Part shown: positions 42,535 through 52,154 of the stretch, one piece after another
How positions within the stretch are numbered: position 1 is the first letter of the stretch
Layout of the letters: each line of letters opens with the position of its first letter
Assembly: GCA_937981665.1 (NCBI GenBank)
Contig: CALJOJ010000021.1
Location: forward strand, 1-64,000
DNA from: an uncultured Rubritalea sp.
GTDB taxonomy: Bacteria > Verrucomicrobiota > Verrucomicrobiia > Verrucomicrobiales > Akkermansiaceae
Reading direction: 5' to 3'
DNA length: 64,000 nucleotides
Translations under genes and position numbers: made by a program
Notes under the pieces: generated by a model
The model's input: the letters and a program-made list of their open reading frames with translations, nothing else
Databases searched by the model: none
What the model was told of the DNA's origin: nothing

Positions 42535-43008
42535 ATGAAAGGATCACCCATTTTAGCCACTGCGCTTGCCTGTTTCATCATGCTCAGCATGTATGTCGGG
42601 ATGCGTTTGGTCTTTTCTCAAGACGGTGATAAAGCTACTGATGCATCATCGGAGGACAACACCTCTAAGCAGCCAGCACTCGACACTGTCACAGCATACG
42701 CCGACCTCTACTTTTCTGCTAAACCACAAAGCCTCGTCATCAGTCACCCAGCTACTGACACTCCCCTACTTGCACTAAATAATCCAGACGCATTCGAGTG
42801 GAACGGCGAAATCCAGCTCCCTAATAACCTCACTGAAGAACTCGAAATCCTCTGTAAAGTAAAATGGGATAACCCACAAGATGGCTACCAGTTCATCCAG
42901 ATCACACTCTCACCAGACGGACTCGATGACCAAAGCCAGACTCTCCGCGCAGAAGGTGACATCACTGACATCATGAATTTTCAATGGAAGGAGACCCCCA
43001 GTGAATAA
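42535..43008 (+). CDS. Anchored hypothetical protein of the metal ABC operon
   Basis: A 157-residue protein with one N-terminal segment (ILATALACFIMLSMYVGMRLVF) and a polar, acidic periplasmic part (SQDGDKATDASSEDNTS...). The domain ends DDQSQTLRAEGDITDIMNFQWKE and shows no family I know. It overlaps the ABC ATPase start by 8 bp, so they are translationally coupled. It is too small to be a zinc/manganese solute-binding protein and has no His-rich loop; a helper role for the transporter is inferred from position only. Confidence 0.7.
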   Translation: MKGSPILATALACFIMLSMYVGMRLVFSQDGDKATDASSEDNTSKQPALDTVTAYADLYFSAKPQSLVISHPATDTPLLALNNPDAFEWNGEIQLPNNLTEELEILCKVKWDNPQDGYQFIQITLSPDGLDDQSQTLRAEGDITDIMNFQWKETPSE

Positions 43009-43789
43009 ACCAAAATCAACCTCAAATCCAGACACACACGAGGACCACTCATGCTGCGCGCACCACGATCACCATCATGACATCGTAGTCGAAAACCTCA
43101 CCGTCAAATACCGCGGTCTAACAGCTCTAGAAGATATCAGTTTCAATACATCTTGCGGTAACAGGCTCGCCCTTATCGGCCCTAATGGAGCAGGTAAATC
43201 AACTTTACTAAAAGCCATCGCTGGACTCGTTAAGAAATCCTCAGGTAACATCCAATGGCGCGGCACTGCTGTCCGTAAATGGTCCAGCGAGTTCGCCTAT
43301 TTGCCTCAGCGCGAAGAAGTCGACTGGAACTTCCCCATCACCGTCCGCGGACTAGTAGAGATGGGCCGCTACCCACAACTAGGTATGTGGAATAAATTTT
43401 CTAATAAAGATCGAGAAGCCGTAGATAACGCACTCGAATCGCTCGCTCTAACAGATCTACAAAACCGTCAAATCAAGCAGCTCTCTGGCGGCCAACAACA
43501 AAGAGCCTTCATAGCCCGCGCCATCGCACAGGAAGCACACGTTCTCCTGCTCGACGAGCCATTTACAGGTCTCGATAGAACCACAGCCCAGACTCTGAGC
43601 GATCTCATGCACAAGCTCGCCGGTGAAGGAAGACTCATCATCGCCTCCCATCACGACATGCACTCAGCCAAGGAGCTCTTCAATCAAGTCCTGCTCATCA
43701 ACCGTGAAAACATCGCCTTCGGTGATAGCCAAGAGCTAATCACTGACAAGCTGTTAGAGACCACGTTTAACTCAAGTATATCACACTAA
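43001..43789 (+). CDS. ATPase of a zinc/manganese-type metal ABC transporter
   Basis: A 262-residue ABC ATPase. Walker A GPNGAGKST (60-68), signature LSGGQQQR and Walker B LLLDEPFTGLD are intact, and the core looks like ZnuC/MntB. Before it is an unusual His/Cys-rich leader (residues 11-26: DTHEDHSCCAHHDHHH), which could bind metal and sense it. The start is GTG at 43001, overlapping the preceding gene. The permease follows after 2 bp. Metal specificity cannot be told from sequence; Zn, Mn or Fe are possible. Confidence 0.88.
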   Translation: MNKPKSTSNPDTHEDHSCCAHHDHHHDIVVENLTVKYRGLTALEDISFNTSCGNRLALIGPNGAGKSTLLKAIAGLVKKSSGNIQWRGTAVRKWSSEFAYLPQREEVDWNFPITVRGLVEMGRYPQLGMWNKFSNKDREAVDNALESLALTDLQNRQIKQLSGGQQQRAFIARAIAQEAHVLLLDEPFTGLDRTTAQTLSDLMHKLAGEGRLIIASHHDMHSAKELFNQVLLINRENIAFGDSQELITDKLLETTFNSSISH

Positions 43790-43791
43790 CT

Positions 43792-44619
43792 ATGGACATC
43801 CTAGCTAACATAGACCTACTGGCTGCGCCCTTCGTCGGCGCTACCGTGATTGGCTTTGCCAATGGATTCTTCAGTGGTTTCGTTAACCTTCGCCGCAGTG
43901 CGCTATCCGTCTCTGCACTTGCGCACACCATGCTACCAGGTATCGCACTTGCCGTCCTCATCACCCAGCAGCTCACTCAAGCCAATGCCTTTCTGGGCGC
44001 ATTACTCGCTTGTATCCTCGTCGGTCTTGGCTCCGTTCTCGTAAGCAGAAATTCTCGCATCCCTGAGAGTACAGCACTAGCGGTCCTCTATACTGCCGCC
44101 TTCTCTGCTGGCATCGCCATCCTGCCACACTTACCAGTAGTCGCATCTCTCGAAAGCTGGCTTTTTGGTGATCTAAGCCTCATGTCACCCCGTGACTTAA
44201 ACTTCATCTTCATCATCAGTACCCTAAGCCTAGCATTGTGTAATCTCTTCATGCGCCCACTTTTACTCACCATGTTTGAGCCAAACGTAGCGTCCGCCCA
44301 AGGAGTACCTGTTAGAGCCATGCAGTATCTCATTTTCACCCTTCTCATCCTAATGCTCGTCGCATCTCTTCAGGCAGTCGGTAGTGTGCTTTCCGTTTCT
44401 CTTCTCGTAGCGCCATCAGCCATCATGCTGCTATTTACAGATAACACCAAGAGCTTGTTCTGGGGTGGAGCCATCGTCGGAGCTGTCTCTGGTGCAGGTG
44501 GTGTGGCGCTCAGCCATCTCGTCAACATCCATGCAGGGCAAGCTATAGTAATCCTCCTAGGTATTATATTCTTGCTCGCCTTCACCTTCAGCCCTCGCTA
44601 CGGTATCCTAAAAAAATAA
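43792..44619 (+). CDS. Permease of a zinc/manganese-type metal ABC transporter
   Basis: A 275-residue ABC-3 family membrane protein with eight to nine segments. The conserved FFSGFVNLRRSALSVSALAHTMLPGIALA near the N-terminus and LQAVGSVLSVSLLVAPSAIMLLFT in the middle are the ZnuB/MntC marks. It begins 2 bp after the ATPase. No solute-binding protein gene is next to either, although the anchored protein at 42535 precedes them. crcB follows after 31 bp and may be on the same transcript. Confidence 0.9.
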   Translation: MDILANIDLLAAPFVGATVIGFANGFFSGFVNLRRSALSVSALAHTMLPGIALAVLITQQLTQANAFLGALLACILVGLGSVLVSRNSRIPESTALAVLYTAAFSAGIAILPHLPVVASLESWLFGDLSLMSPRDLNFIFIISTLSLALCNLFMRPLLLTMFEPNVASAQGVPVRAMQYLIFTLLILMLVASLQAVGSVLSVSLLVAPSAIMLLFTDNTKSLFWGGAIVGAVSGAGGVALSHLVNIHAGQAIVILLGIIFLLAFTFSPRYGILKK

Positions 44620-45031: not shown

Positions 45032-46099
45032 TTACTCGTCTCCAGGAAATGGATTCGCACTAAGTCGCAGATCCACATCCTTCTCGAACAATGGAATAAT
45101 CATTTCATCGGCTATTCCTTTCTTCTGAATCCCCTTACTCATATCAGGACGCACCAGATTGATCGCTAAGGCGACACTCGCTGACACACCAAGCACTAGC
45201 ATTACAAGCATCGTATTTACACGGCTCACCCCTGAACGTTTTTCTAGTAAATTCGTCACACGGTTCTTCAAGCTCGCCTGATTCGCCATCGCTAAGACTG
45301 CAGAGAAGCCAAGCACAGATCCTGTATTCTTCAGCTTATCGTCATGACAAGATTCCGCCACATCACACAATGCATTGATATAGCTTTTACGGTGAGCACC
45401 AGACGAGATCACATGCGCATCGCACGCGTATTCGCACTCGTGAGTCAGTCGCTTTCTAAGCATCCATACTAACGGATTATACCAATGTAGAGCACAAGCA
45501 ACCTGCCCTACTAAGCTAGTCCATAAATCTCTACGCTGCACATGTCCAAGCTCATGCAACATTACCATTTTCAATGTCTCCTCACTCCAGCTGATAGCAT
45601 TCACAGGTAAAAGCAGAACCGGCTTCATCACCCCAGTAATCACAGGAGAATCCACATTCTCAGAAATCCTAAGCTCAGGTAATTTCTTTAACTTCAGCTG
45701 ATCTGCACAGTCATTTAATAAAACAAAGGTGGCTGCATCATCACACATCAACGCTTCCATACACCAGCGTCGTATTACCGTATAATGGCTGCACAGGCGC
45801 ATCAACAAGAACATGCCTATCACAAAATACACAGACAAACTAAAAACCATAAAACTAATCCCACTACCCAAAGCTGTTACTTCTAGTACAGCAGCGGTTT
45901 CTGAAGTTCTTGCTATTAACGGCAACCAACTAAAATCTACATTGAGATGAATCTTAGGCATCCATAACAACAACGGAGTCAGCATCAGTAACACTAACAT
46001 CCCAGCAGTGAGTCCAGAGGAGTACACAGGATTTTTCCTACCCGTCCACATACTCAATACCAGCGCTAACGCTGAAATAATGATGCTCGTAATTACCAT
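45032..46099 (-). CDS. BlaR1/MecR1-type M56 membrane metalloprotease without sensor domain
   Basis: A 355-residue protein with membrane segments near 3-18, 30-48, 78-102 and 282-300. The zinc protease motif is HELGHVQRRD (His182-His186), with the third ligand in HECEYACDAH. It matches the antirepressor protease part of BlaR1/MecR1. True BlaR1 proteins of about 590 residues add a penicillin-binding sensor outside the membrane; here only about 45 residues follow the last segment, so the signal is unknown. It lies 27 bp after blaI on the same strand and would cleave it on induction. Confidence 0.88.
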   Translation of the reverse strand: MVITSIIISALALVLSMWTGRKNPVYSSGLTAGMLVLLMLTPLLLWMPKIHLNVDFSWLPLIARTSETAAVLEVTALGSGISFMVFSLSVYFVIGMFLLMRLCSHYTVIRRWCMEALMCDDAATFVLLNDCADQLKLKKLPELRISENVDSPVITGVMKPVLLLPVNAISWSEETLKMVMLHELGHVQRRDLWTSLVGQVACALHWYNPLVWMLRKRLTHECEYACDAHVISSGAHRKSYINALCDVAESCHDDKLKNTGSVLGFSAVLAMANQASLKNRVTNLLEKRSGVSRVNTMLVMLVLGVSASVALAINLVRPDMSKGIQKKGIADEMIIPLFEKDVDLRLSANPFPGDE

Positions 46100-46126: not shown

Positions 46127-46495
46127 CTACTTCACCATTTTACGAATTTCATCGATCTCTTCTTTCGATAAATCTTGATCCTTCTCATCTAACAATGCTG
46201 CTACTAGATTTTGAGGTTTCCCTTCGAAGAACGTAGAAATCAAATTAGTTAATGCTGACTTACGCGCCTTCTTTTCTGCCACTGCTGGCTTATAAATATA
46301 GCGTCGAGATTCTTTTTCATGCTTCACCATTTCCTTTTTCTCCAGCGTTACTAATAGTGCGCGTACTGCTGAATATGACGGAGGATCTGGTAAGTTCTTT
46401 TCCACATCTTTTGCGGAAGCCTTACCCAGACGGTAAATAATATCCATAATCTGCCGTTCCCTACGGGACATTTGACCGTTTTCTAATCTGCTCAT
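46127..46495 (-). CDS. BlaI/MecI/CopY-type repressor
   Basis: A 122-residue penicillinase-repressor family protein. The winged helix (about 8-75) contains RRERQIMDIIYRLGKASAKDVEKNLPD, SYSAVRALLVTLEKKEMVKHEKESRRYIY; the C-terminal dimer part has LISTFFEGK, the zone where BlaI is cut by its protease. I start it at ATG 46495 (MSRLENGQ) rather than a GTG at 46504. A good promoter overlaps a 17-bp inverted repeat just upstream, implying autoregulation. The partner protease is 27 bp downstream. Confidence 0.9.
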   Translation of the reverse strand: MSRLENGQMSRRERQIMDIIYRLGKASAKDVEKNLPDPPSYSAVRALLVTLEKKEMVKHEKESRRYIYKPAVAEKKARKSALTNLISTFFEGKPQNLVAALLDEKDQDLSKEEIDEIRKMVK

Positions 46496-46502
46496 ATAGA
46501 TC

Positions 46503-46530
46503 ACTATACAGAGTGCTAAAAATACTGCAA
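46503..46530 (-). promoter_or_regulatory. Promoter of the BlaI-type repressor gene
   Basis: On the minus strand TTGCAG (46530-46525) and TATAGT (46508-46503) are separated by 16 bp, a good sigma70-type pair. The predicted transcript start (about 46497-46500) is only a few bases before the ATG at 46495, so the message would have an extremely short leader. The -35 box lies inside the inverted repeat. Confidence 0.6.
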
Positions 46531-46555
46531 TTTAAAAATGCAGTATTTTTAGCAC
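46513..46555. promoter_or_regulatory. 17-bp perfect inverted repeat, probable BlaI-type operator
   Basis: GTGCTAAAAATACTGCA (46513-46529) and its exact reverse complement (46539-46555) flank a 9-bp AT spacer. It sits between the divergent repressor and lipoprotein genes and covers the repressor -35 box. BlaI/MecI operators are dyads with a TAC...GTA core; TACTGCA/TGCAGTA is present in both arms. Control of both genes from this site is inferred. Confidence 0.75.
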
Positions 46556-46600
46556 AAAACAATTGACTAATTTATTAAATGCTGTTTTTCTAGCCTTATT

Positions 46601-47461
46601 ATGAAATTCACCACTAAAAGCCTGTGTCGAAATAAAGTAAAACTAACTTCCTTATCTAGCATAGCGGCCATTGGACTAGGGATCAGCATTCTCAATATCA
46701 CAAGCTGTGCTGTAGCCCCACCTGGAGTCCCTAACATTCCATCAGTATCTGAAGCTCCTCAAACAGATAGTCTAGCGAAAAGTAAATCTGTAAGCGCTTA
46801 CTCACCTCCTCTCGAGCGCCCAGGTCTCGGCACAGGTTGGGGAAAAGACATTTCTTCAGAAGTAGGCTTTATTAATTTCAAACGCTCTAGCAACAAACCA
46901 AGTGGAGTCGCCTCTATCTACTACAATGACAAAGAAGGCATCAAAGCAATGACCAACTCCTGGAGCTACAGTGGTTCTGGTATGCAAAAAGCAGCTGATG
47001 GGCTAGTAGAATGGGGCGTCAAAGGATCATGGGGCTACCTCAAAAACAAACATTCCAAAGGTAAGCGATTCGTCACTGGTAATAAAGATAAGAACTACGC
47101 ACTCGTCGTGAAAAACCTCTCTCGCACCAGACTTGAAATTGTATTTAGTGTAGATGGTCTTGATGTCATGGACGGCAAGCCAGCTTCTATCAAACGCCGC
47201 GGCTACATTATCCCAGCTGGGGAGACGCTCACCGTCAAAGGCTTTAGAAAAAGTGCCGATGCGGTGGCTGCATTCAAGTTCGCAAGTGTTAACAGTTCAT
47301 ACACTCAACTCAGCGGAACAGGCACCAGAAACATAGGTGTCATAGGCATGGCAGTCTTCACAGAAGCAGGTCGCGACCCATGGAAATATGGCAAAACAGA
47401 ACTCAACAACCGACACAACGCCAGAGCATTCGCAGAAGCACCACAGTTAAGAGCAAGGTAA
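46601..47461 (+). CDS. Unknown lipoprotein divergent from blaI
   Basis: A 286-residue protein with a long leader ending at Cys36 (LNITSC), a plausible lipobox. A Pro/Ser-rich linker follows (about 37-75). The later part contains YALVVKNLSRTRLEIVFSVDGLDVMDGKPAS, RRGYIIPAGETLTVKGFRKS, VAAFKFASVNSSYTQ and RNIGVIGMAVFTE; I have the impression of a recurrent family of secreted proteins but can name none. It is 46 bp from the BlaI operator repeat and may be the regulated target. No beta-lactamase motif (SxxK, KTG) is present. Confidence 0.75.
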   Translation: MKFTTKSLCRNKVKLTSLSSIAAIGLGISILNITSCAVAPPGVPNIPSVSEAPQTDSLAKSKSVSAYSPPLERPGLGTGWGKDISSEVGFINFKRSSNKPSGVASIYYNDKEGIKAMTNSWSYSGSGMQKAADGLVEWGVKGSWGYLKNKHSKGKRFVTGNKDKNYALVVKNLSRTRLEIVFSVDGLDVMDGKPASIKRRGYIIPAGETLTVKGFRKSADAVAAFKFASVNSSYTQLSGTGTRNIGVIGMAVFTEAGRDPWKYGKTELNNRHNARAFAEAPQLRAR

Positions 47462-48261: not shown

Positions 48262-49287
48262 CTACTGGTCGATTTGTTTCTTAAGCTCTCTCACCTCTTT
48301 GAGGAGTTGCGGGAGCTTGGCAAGTGCCGCTTGTTTTTTACCATCTTCACGCATCGGCCTAGCTGGGAATCCAGCATAAACCACTCCTCCTGGAAGAGAT
48401 TTAGTAACTCCTGATCTAGCTGCCAAAGTCGCTTTATCACCCACTTCTAAATGCCCTGAAAGCCCCGCCTGAGCAGCCATAGTGACGTAATCCCCTAACT
48501 TTGAACTCCCTGCTATTCCTGATTGAGAAATGACTAAACAATGTTTTCCAATACGCACATTATGGGCGACCTGCACGAGGTTATCAATCTTCGACCCTTC
48601 GCCGATGAAGGTTTTACCAAATCTCGCACGGTCAATAGTAGTATTAGCTCCGATTTCCACATCATTCTCTAATACCACTACCCCCACCTGATCTACCTTG
48701 GTGTGCTTACCGTCTACTAGCTCGTAGCCATAACCGCATGAACCGATGACACAGCCAGGCTGGAGTATCACACGATCACCAATCTGTGCGTGCTCACGGA
48801 CATTCACATTTGAGTGAAATAAGCAATTTTCGCCCACTTTAGATCCTTCACAAATGACTGATCCTGCACCGATCTCGGTTCCGTCACCGATCTCGCAACC
48901 CGCTTCAATAACCACATTAGGCTTGATACAAACCTTATCTTTATTGATCACAACATCATCAGCGATCACAGCACTTGGATGAACACCAAGCCTTGTTGTA
49001 CGTTGTTTAGTAGCTAGTACCTTCACTACTTCACCGAAGGCGTATGATGGATTCTCAACCTCTAACAAAACTGCTGCTCTTGGCTGATCAGGTAGTCCGG
49101 CTGGTACGAATACGGCAGCTGCTTTCGTACCAAGAAAGTCTTGATAATACTTCTCGTTACCCAGGAAAGAAACTTCAGTATCACCAGCTTCAGCGAGAGA
49201 AGCCACACCAGAGATCGTCAGCTCGCTAACACCCTGCACGAGCTTAGCACCAGTTAAGTTTATTATTTCTTGTATCGTAAGTTGCAC
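48262..49287 (-). CDS. lpxD: UDP-3-O-acylglucosamine N-acyltransferase LpxD
   Basis: A 341-residue trimeric left-handed beta-helix enzyme that adds the second acyl chain of lipid A. N-terminal uridine-binding domain (1-100; GVASLAEAGDTEVSFLGNEKYY), hexapeptide coils with GSCGYGYELVDGKHTKVDQVGVV, TIDRARFGKTFIGEGSKIDNLVQVAHNVRIGKHC (catalytic His in VAHN) and a C-terminal helix. Length is normal. It is 20 bp after fdhD on the same strand, a chance neighbour. Confidence 0.95.
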   Translation of the reverse strand: MQLTIQEIINLTGAKLVQGVSELTISGVASLAEAGDTEVSFLGNEKYYQDFLGTKAAAVFVPAGLPDQPRAAVLLEVENPSYAFGEVVKVLATKQRTTRLGVHPSAVIADDVVINKDKVCIKPNVVIEAGCEIGDGTEIGAGSVICEGSKVGENCLFHSNVNVREHAQIGDRVILQPGCVIGSCGYGYELVDGKHTKVDQVGVVVLENDVEIGANTTIDRARFGKTFIGEGSKIDNLVQVAHNVRIGKHCLVISQSGIAGSSKLGDYVTMAAQAGLSGHLEVGDKATLAARSGVTKSLPGGVVYAGFPARPMREDGKKQAALAKLPQLLKEVRELKKQIDQ

Positions 49288-50777: not shown

Positions 50778-52154
50778 ATGCCAGACCACATTAAGAAAAT
50801 CTTCATCCCTTTCATTCTGCTCCTTATCGGTGTGGGAGTGGCCGCATTTCTCATCCCTTATGAGCAGGCTGTGGTGGCTGAGCAGTTCTGCGGCTACCCA
50901 GACTCGCATAAGCAATCACACCAGCTAAGAGTCTGGCTATTAGGCGGGCTATGCTTGATGCCCTTCCTTTGCAGCATTGGTTACTACTGCATGGACCGTC
51001 TCGATCGCTACACCTTGAGAACTTTTGCTAATTCGTTCCTCATCTGTTTTGGTGCGCTATTCATGATCATGTTCCTAGAGGATTTTCAGGACAATGTTTC
51101 TGACTTCCAAAAATCCGACCAAACTGGCTCGCTGATGGCGCAGCATTATCTGAATAAAATGCCAGCACTGACCGTCTTCATTCTACCTTACTCACTGATG
51201 CTTTCACTACTTTGGGCACTCGGTAAAATGTCAAAAAACCAAGAGTTGGTATCCATCATCCAGACTGGTAGAAGTGTGATACGACTGACGCGTCCACTCG
51301 CTCTAGTAGGAGTGGTATGCACCATTATCTGTATGATTTTCAACTATCACTGGGCACCGCATGCTGAGAGTCTAGAAGATGCTATACTCGCAGAAGCCAC
51401 AGGCACCACCTTGAACGCAGCTGAATCTGTGGCATTTCAAAACGGCAGTGACACACGACACTGGCTAGTAGGGTCATTTCCATACAATCACACGAAAGGT
51501 GCACCACTGAAAGCTGTTGAAATTTTAGTGATGGATGAAAATCATAAGGCAACACAGAAAATCATAGCTGATGAGGCCACTTGGTCATCAGAAAGCCGCC
51601 AATGGACGCTCTCAAAACCAATTATTTTCAACCTTAATCAAAACCCTACTGATGAGAGTAAGGTCTTCTCTAACCAGCCTCCCACAATTTCTACAGAAGA
51701 CATGGTGACCGACTGGCCAGAGACACCATGGCAGATCATCCACCCAGGACTCAAGGCTCCCTATCTCGGTATACCAGGACTAAAAAGCTGGCTACAGAAC
51801 TACACAGATAACCCGCTCTCAGACAAACGCTCTTACCAGACTCACCTATACTACCGAATCGCTCAACCATTTATCTGCCTGATCATTATCCTATTAGCTG
51901 CACCGCTAGGTATCGTACTTAACAAGCGTGGTGTTGGTGGCGGCATTGCAGTCGCCATTTTCCTCTGTGCGGGTATGATCTTCTGCTCTACAGTATTTCC
52001 TACGCTTGGTGAGTCTGGTCACTTACCACCACTCATTGCGGCATGGGCGACTAACATCCTCTTTGGTTTCGTGGCACTCATCCTGTTCTATCGGCGGATT
52101 ACTGGCCAGCCTATCTACCAGAGTATCAAGAAAATCATCCCGTTTGGAAATTAA
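50778..52154 (+). CDS. LptF/LptG-family lipopolysaccharide export permease
   Basis: A 458-residue YjgP/YjgQ family protein with six membrane segments and a periplasmic jelly-roll-like part (about 205-330). Typical features are MDRLDRYTLRTFANSFLICFGALFMIMFLEDFQDNVSDF and the Leu-rich segment with PYSLMLSLLWALGKMSKNQELVSIIQTGRS. An extra N-terminal membrane segment (IKKIFIPFILLLIGVGVAAFLIP) precedes the family's usual start. The partner permease and LptB are not here. It probably carries lipopolysaccharide from the inner membrane in a heterodimer. The next gene follows after 32 bp. Confidence 0.88.
   Translation: MPDHIKKIFIPFILLLIGVGVAAFLIPYEQAVVAEQFCGYPDSHKQSHQLRVWLLGGLCLMPFLCSIGYYCMDRLDRYTLRTFANSFLICFGALFMIMFLEDFQDNVSDFQKSDQTGSLMAQHYLNKMPALTVFILPYSLMLSLLWALGKMSKNQELVSIIQTGRSVIRLTRPLALVGVVCTIICMIFNYHWAPHAESLEDAILAEATGTTLNAAESVAFQNGSDTRHWLVGSFPYNHTKGAPLKAVEILVMDENHKATQKIIADEATWSSESRQWTLSKPIIFNLNQNPTDESKVFSNQPPTISTEDMVTDWPETPWQIIHPGLKAPYLGIPGLKSWLQNYTDNPLSDKRSYQTHLYYRIAQPFICLIIILLAAPLGIVLNKRGVGGGIAVAIFLCAGMIFCSTVFPTLGESGHLPPLIAAWATNILFGFVALILFYRRITGQPIYQSIKKIIPFGN

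Follow-up and report, generated by a model that had tools for sequence, protein, structure and literature searches.

A predicted BlaI regulon of envelope lipoproteins in an uncultured Rubritalea, and a C-terminal motif common to its M56 protease and main target

What does a BlaI-type repressor control, and what does its partner protease respond to, when the pair carries no penicillin-binding domain and has no beta-lactamase beside it? The question is raised by three genes in the window, that is, the whole stretch of 64,000 nucleotides analysed here, which a first-pass annotation had described as a BlaI/M56 pair divergent from a 286-residue lipoprotein, an arrangement borne out by the coordinates and the Pfam matches.

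The repressor, the protease and the facing lipoprotein

The genes and the catalytic site of the protease are as follows.

45032..46099, minus strand: M56 (BlaR1-type) membrane zinc metalloprotease, 355 aa (Pfam PF05569, E 2.4e-34)
45542..45556, minus strand: HELGH zinc site of the M56 protease, residues 182-186
46127..46504, minus strand: BlaI/MecI-type repressor gene blaI (Pfam PF03965, E 5.9e-28)
46601..47461, plus strand: lipoprotein of 286 aa with lipobox ITSC, divergent from blaI

The repressor contains the Penicillinase_R winged-helix domain (PF03965, 98 bits against a cut-off of 22.6) and matches the MecI structure 1okr (E 1.6e-07). Its start is most likely the ATG at 46495, giving 122 aa, rather than the annotated GTG at 46504. 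The GTG overlaps the -10 element TATAGT of the blaI promoter, conservation among 53 homologues starts near M4, and since the promoter places the transcript start beside the ATG, the GTG start is probably too long. BlaR1 cleaves BlaI directly, and N101-F102 is the cleavage site of the Staphylococcus aureus members (PMC9834060). These two residues are not conserved in the present repressor, where A103-L104 are aligned with them; N101-F102 is a mark of the bla/mec members and not of the Pfam family as a whole, and cleavage may fall elsewhere in this repressor.

The M56 gene directly follows blaI on the same strand, and the two are probably co-transcribed. Four transmembrane segments are predicted in its product from hydrophobic segments, HExxH is present in all 50 M56 homologues, and H182, E183, H186, E223 and D227 are invariant in alignment A3, which comprises 45 of the 50 proteins (L119 and four near-duplicates were left out); E223 is presumed to be the third zinc ligand. 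Foldseek aligns the AF2 model with S. aureus BlaR1 (8ext, E 6.3e-07). Membership in BlaR1 itself was rejected at 94.7 bits against a cut-off of 400, and no class-D beta-lactamase-like sensor domain was found in the roughly 39 residues that follow the last transmembrane segment. The first-pass annotation was thus right to call this 355-residue protein a protease without a penicillin-binding sensor, and also right that no beta-lactamase lies nearby, none having been seen among the scanned flanking genes or, by eye, in the list of open reading frames.

The lipoprotein has its lipobox ITSC at Cys36 (codon 46706-46708), which is at least 90% conserved both in 21 homologues and in the 52 of alignment A2, drawn from 72 eligible lipoproteins. 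It has no Pfam or NCBIfam family, among 21 members no Pfam family was hit twice or more (best E 0.06), and a PDB profile search with the family returned no match. The AF2 model (mean pLDDT 84.3) consists of a low-confidence linker followed by a mostly beta domain, for which Foldseek gave no match at E 0.001 or better; the best VIA-align hits, to the SPOP MATH domain and a designed immunoglobulin-like protein, reached Z 5.2, below the meaningful level.

Genes for outer-membrane lipids lie near the locus, namely LpxD (48262-49287) and an LptF/LptG-type permease (50778-52154). The same contig also holds a second BlaI/M56 pair (L002, the same as L064; C21:110492) with another lipoprotein, predicted by eye, nearby (L002:2442-3176), and no operator match above 10 bits was found near this second pair.

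Operator dyads and a predicted regulon of lipoproteins

Between the divergent starts the first-pass annotation had noted a perfect 17-bp inverted repeat overlapping the repressor promoter. The repeat is real, with arms at 46513-46529 and 46539-46555 and 9 bp between them, and it exceeds chance: it is the sole perfect inverted repeat in the window with arms of at least 13 bp and a spacer of at most 30 bp, and the longest arm in 100 first-order Markov sequences of window length was 14. The reading of this repeat as a single operator did not stand. When the genome was searched for further copies of the arm, as had been proposed, only its own two arms were found without mismatch, and all nine further matches carried three mismatches, against five matches for the control; the arm was therefore rejected as the operator. 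Comparison of 23 homologous intergenic regions gives as the conserved unit a 16-bp dyad, TGCTRN6YAGCA-like with ends TGCTR and YAGCA. All 23 regions have at least two sites of at least 10 bits, and 15 have three of at least 13 bits. In the window the repeat consists of two adjacent dyads, and a third, non-identical copy, overlooked earlier, lies 5 nt ahead of the lipoprotein ATG. Identical arms were seen in the window and one close relative alone (L024/L122), where sites 1 and 2 by chance mirror each other and so produce the 17-bp repeat. The elements of the intergenic region are listed below.

46503..46508, minus strand: putative blaI -10, TATAGT, read from the sequence
46513..46555: 17-bp perfect inverted repeat, made up of sites 1 and 2
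46514..46529: predicted operator site 1, TGCTAAAAATACTGCA, over the blaI promoter (PWM 19.2 bits)
46525-46530, minus strand: putative blaI -35, TTGCAG, with a 16-bp spacer to the -10, read from the sequence
46539..46554: predicted operator site 2, TGCAGTATTTTTAGCA, between both promoters (PWM 19.2 bits)
46563..46568, plus strand: lipoprotein -35, TTGACT; TTGNC lies between sites 2 and 3 in 58/60 loci
46580..46595: predicted operator site 3, TGCTGTTTTTCTAGCC, in the lipoprotein -10/start region (PWM 15.5 bits), conserved in position

The -10 of the lipoprotein, as read from the sequence, is T-rich and poorly defined ahead of the ATG at 46601. Sites 2 and 3 lie 39-45 bp apart in 57/60 loci, and the ATG lies 2-6 nt past site 3 in 61/65. 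Given this conserved spacing, together with the -35 and the position of the ATG, site 3 would occupy the place where RNA polymerase must bind. Bla/mec-type dyad operators have a TACA/TGTA core; the dyad of the distant locus L042 reads TGTAG...CTACA in place of the sequence found here. A 17-bp hairpin between divergent genes can resemble a terminator, and one might take the repeat for that or for a chance palindrome between unrelated neighbours. It lies between two divergent starts and not behind a gene, however, no arm longer than 14 bp arose in the 100 simulated windows, and across relatives the dyads are conserved but the hairpin is not, so that the comparative data already refute this reading and leave it hardly any probability.

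The lipoprotein is present in 33 of 58 related genomes, its own included, and blaI lies divergently beside it in 23 of the 30 loci fetched. Among the other seven, five still have sites 2 and 3 at the promoter of the lipoprotein (L026, L027, L030, L031, L032), one has the lipoprotein and no operator that we could find (L036, G052), and one is cut off (L039). In a wider set of 80 loci, scanned from 420 bp before to 60 bp after the lipoprotein match, a site of at least 12 bits was found upstream in 65, compared with 15 of 1086 background tiles, with a matrix whose training loci overlap in part with the 80; the sequences counted are related, and the counts measure conservation and not independent events. 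Divergent blaI and operator occur together in 51 of these loci, the operator without an upstream blaI in 14, neither in 13, and blaI without a site of at least 12 bits in two (L177, L189). Where blaI has moved away, the sites thus mostly stay with the lipoprotein. The 13 loci with neither include records from Chthoniobacterales, Minicystis, Myxococcales and Ca. Parabeggiatoa, indicating that the lipoprotein family is wider than the BlaI control circuit.

The proposed check in relatives came out in two parts, the three genes and the sites being kept together and the 17-bp repeat itself being confined to this locus and L024/L122. Neither of the comparative outcomes that would have refuted the first-pass reading, absence of the repeat or loss of adjacency in relatives, was borne out, as the counts of 23/30 and, with sites, 51/80 show, and the proposal that the lipoprotein is a regulated target is supported, at the level of conserved DNA, by its upstream sites and the divergent blaI. 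Across the 36 genomes of the window's family, a blaI orthologue (over 130 bits) and the lipoprotein are both present in 23 and both missing in 11 (Fisher p 2.3e-07), the exceptions being G012 with the lipoprotein only and G018 with blaI only. In the G018 record (L111) the blaI orthologue is present, the M56 frame is broken and the lipoprotein was not found; M56 and lipoprotein seem to have been lost together. Another irregular case is L119, a Rubritalea profundi record, with an internal stop in the lipoprotein frame and an M56 frame that ends without the C-terminal tail described below; some 0.8 kb beyond, an open frame of 19 codons encodes the tail motif. An insertion, a sequence error or joint decay may lie behind this. 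The trio is also found in the named, cultured Verrucomicrobiota Haloferula, Luteolibacter and Persicirhabdus.

Other members of the regulon were sought as two dyads 20-32 bp apart in the 58 genomes, after which 11 second loci were inspected. In the window's genome a DUF4349 lipoprotein gene (L060:3020-3778, PF14257, E 4.6e-32) has two predicted sites 43 bp apart over its promoter. DUF4349 genes, picked by family alone, were found in 12 of the 58 genomes, and two sites precede the gene in 11 of the 12 loci; in the twelfth (L196) it lies downstream of the lipoprotein, whose own two sites precede the shared operon. For a LysM lipoprotein (L061:2027-2530), the loci with a site number 12/20 and, within the window's genus, 11/12. 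G010, the genus genome lacking the site, is also the only one at least 90% complete without a blaI orthologue, and so forms a natural control. Some of the eight LysM loci without a site belong to genomes that carry blaI (G017, G018, G019, G021). Sites also precede members of a third lipoprotein family (L058:960-1811) in 6/6 loci (L206-L211), with none directly ahead of the tandem copies L212/L224, and with sites mostly absent from proteins matching the family at the C-terminus only. Many small proteins in these genomes, L058:960-1811 and L098:1615-1941 among them, have in common a C-terminal module some 55 residues long (NPFTG..VDV.GI..G..VRDP......F.VP). A peptidase-like frame identified by eye (L057:2445-2990) has a 20.8-bit site at its start in the window's genome and was not counted, the site being unconserved at the start of three homologues; single sites also fall inside genes at L056, L059 and L063, with a further one at L062. 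Since the same sites precede several lipoprotein genes, they point to an envelope-lipoprotein regulon, and a BlaI/M56 regulon wider than one lipoprotein is well supported by these sequence comparisons. No beta-lactamase was seen among the targets.

A C-terminal motif on both protease and lipoprotein

The protease closes with E-x3-R-x2-A-x-P-F-P, and the lipoprotein ends in the near-identical E-x3-R-x2-A-x-P-F-A.

45044..45079, minus strand: C-terminal tail motif of the protease, DVDLRLSANPFP, residues 341-352, predicted periplasmic
47399..47434, plus strand: corresponding C-terminal motif in the lipoprotein, ELNNRHNARAFA, residues 267-278

R345, A348, F351 and P352 of the protease tail are as invariant in the 45 sequences of A3 as the zinc ligands. 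The core R-x2-A-x2-F is found in 49/50 M56 orthologues, as against 1.1% of shuffled tails, and it is kept both in orthologues unlinked to the lipoprotein (5/5, L106-L110) and in distant ones (6/6, L250-L255). None of ten M56 proteins of other BlaI pairs (L002, L105, L256, L257, two from L258, L259-L262) has it, and seven of these share genomes with the tailed type; L064 denotes the L002 gene again, and two incomplete proteins, the fragment L111 and the cut-off L113, did not enter the count. BlaI/M56 pairs occur commonly in these genomes, and several of the other proteases (L256, L259-L262) bear long C-terminal extensions, possibly different sensor domains.

On the lipoprotein side the core is present in 72 of 79 C-termini (shuffled tails 2.5%), the seven without it being six short or cut-off frames and L189, and it is conserved even where no BlaI/M56 was found nearby. 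With a matrix made from the lipoprotein tails of eight such loci, the M56 tail was the best-scoring 12-mer of its protein in 46/50 proteases, and 42 of the 50 exceeded 14.6 bits, the maximum for shuffled proteases. A coding pattern for the motif gave 51 matches in 13 genomes; among the 30 examined, seven lipoproteins and two M56 proteins had the match at most 10 residues from a stop in a frame of over 100 aa, and no other protein of that size bore the motif at its C-terminus. In the AF2 monomer of the protease, residues 341-350 of the tail follow a loose linker and have a pLDDT of 87, which would fit docking on the protease itself, and the tail may serve some other purpose; the lipoprotein's own tail, at about 82, would fit docking in cis.

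Because the protease tail carries the motif of the lipoprotein, the latter is probably part of the sensing and not output only. The first-pass annotation had suggested a different signal from that of BlaR1, which agrees with the missing beta-lactam sensor domain, and the shared motif narrows that suggestion to one in which the lipoprotein probably takes part. Conservation of the lipoprotein tail without a nearby protease suggests, in turn, that its pocket predates the circuit, the protease having acquired its tail as a copy.

Possible signals, and comparison with known systems

The best explanation overall, in our judgement a reasonably likely one, combines a BlaI regulon with an M56 protease gated by its tail. 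The repressor would sit on the 16-bp dyads at its own operon and at several lipoprotein promoters and keep them off, sites 1 and 2 covering the blaI promoter and sites 2 and 3 bracketing and covering that of the lipoprotein. Given the conserved DNA, regulation by BlaI at these dyads is highly probable, and from its family the M56 protease, once activated, can be expected with almost as much confidence to cleave BlaI as BlaR1 does. Activation would proceed without a penicillin-binding domain, through the short periplasmic tail that copies the lipoprotein's motif: the lipoprotein, or a pocket that normally holds its own tail, would bind the protease tail and keep the protease inactive. Envelope damage, or a lipoprotein that is scarce or mislocalised, would free the tail, BlaI would be cut, and the lipoprotein, the DUF4349 and LysM lipoproteins and others would be made until the tail was recaptured. 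Gating through tail capture is a tentative proposal, to which we give somewhat less than even weight, and about as tentative is the version in which a copy of the lipoprotein C-terminus has taken the place of the antibiotic sensor and a single pocket is contested by the lipoprotein and the tail of the protease, the cell reading the supply or placement of the lipoprotein directly and adjusting the regulon to it. If true, this would be a self-limiting circuit of envelope repair. The two loci with a divergent blaI and no site (L177, L189), the 8/20 LysM loci lacking one and the unconserved N101-F102 count against this explanation, as do G018 with its blaI and no lipoprotein found, the fairly confident tail in the protease monomer and the lack of a clear match for the lipoprotein fold.

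Other signals have to be weighed against gating by the lipoprotein. A separate periplasmic receptor, such as a PDZ-like protease, a chaperone or an envelope machine, could recognise the tail R-x2-A-x-P-F on lipoprotein and protease alike, the former competing with or reporting on that receptor and not binding the latter. DegS senses the C-termini of outer-membrane proteins. As a regulatory protease that carries a sensor domain of its own it offers a precedent (PMC7593790), and the lipoprotein tail is conserved without BlaI/M56 nearby in Chthoniobacterales, Minicystis, a Myxococcales MAG and Ca. Parabeggiatoa, so that its pocket need not lie on the protease. The 30 of 51 matches examined in 13 genomes, however, included no further protein of over 100 aa with the C-terminal motif, no candidate receptor came to light, and we regard this arrangement as somewhat unlikely.

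Rather less likely is release of BlaI inside the cell by a peptidoglycan dipeptide, with M56 constitutive or downstream and the tail structural. Such a dipeptide binds BlaI/MecI and destabilises the DNA complex (PMC3305447), and a LysM lipoprotein belongs to the predicted regulon, but a tail as invariant as the zinc ligands, and restricted to the proteases that accompany this lipoprotein, would be left unexplained. A metal switch, with M56 responding to copper, has its model in PetR/PetP, a BlaI/M56 pair that serves copper and not beta-lactams (PMC7896320), and genes of an ABC-type metal transporter adjoin the present pair (43001-44619). Its conserved targets are lipoproteins, though, the main one without any metal-binding family that we could find, which makes this switch improbable.

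In searches of an open-licence library on BlaI/M56, DUF4349 and Verrucomicrobia we found no account of this lipoprotein regulon or of the shared tail, nor a description there of tail-mimicry feedback in any M56 system. The pair comes with a defined operator, a defined lipoprotein regulon and a candidate for the sensing element, a dozen residues long and common to protease and target, whereby what M56 proteases sense becomes directly testable in the cultured genera that carry the trio, and the regulon gives a functional context to the DUF4349 lipoproteins of this group.

PetR/PetP of cyanobacteria, a copper-responsive BlaI-type regulator and BlaR1-type protease with a small regulon (PMC7896320), resembles the present system in that a BlaI/M56 pair is used for something other than beta-lactams and has few targets, and it differs in that those targets are plastocyanin and cytochrome c6, here lipoproteins. 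With BlaR1-BlaI and MecR1-MecI of Staphylococcus and Bacillus licheniformis the locus shares the repressor family, the M56 fold, adjacent repressor and protease genes, a divergent target and sites at the repressor's own promoter; unlike them, it has no penicillin-binding sensor and no beta-lactamase or PBP target that we have seen, a different operator, several lipoprotein targets and a short conserved tail in place of the sensor. In the Cpx/CpxP, Rcs/RcsF-IgaA and sigmaE/RseB-DegS circuits, an envelope protein that is a regulon member or a client gates an inner-membrane sensor. The gating proposed here would be of that kind, but in contrast to those circuits the sensor would be a repressor-cleaving M56 protease, and the suggested contact would mimic the C-terminus of its client.
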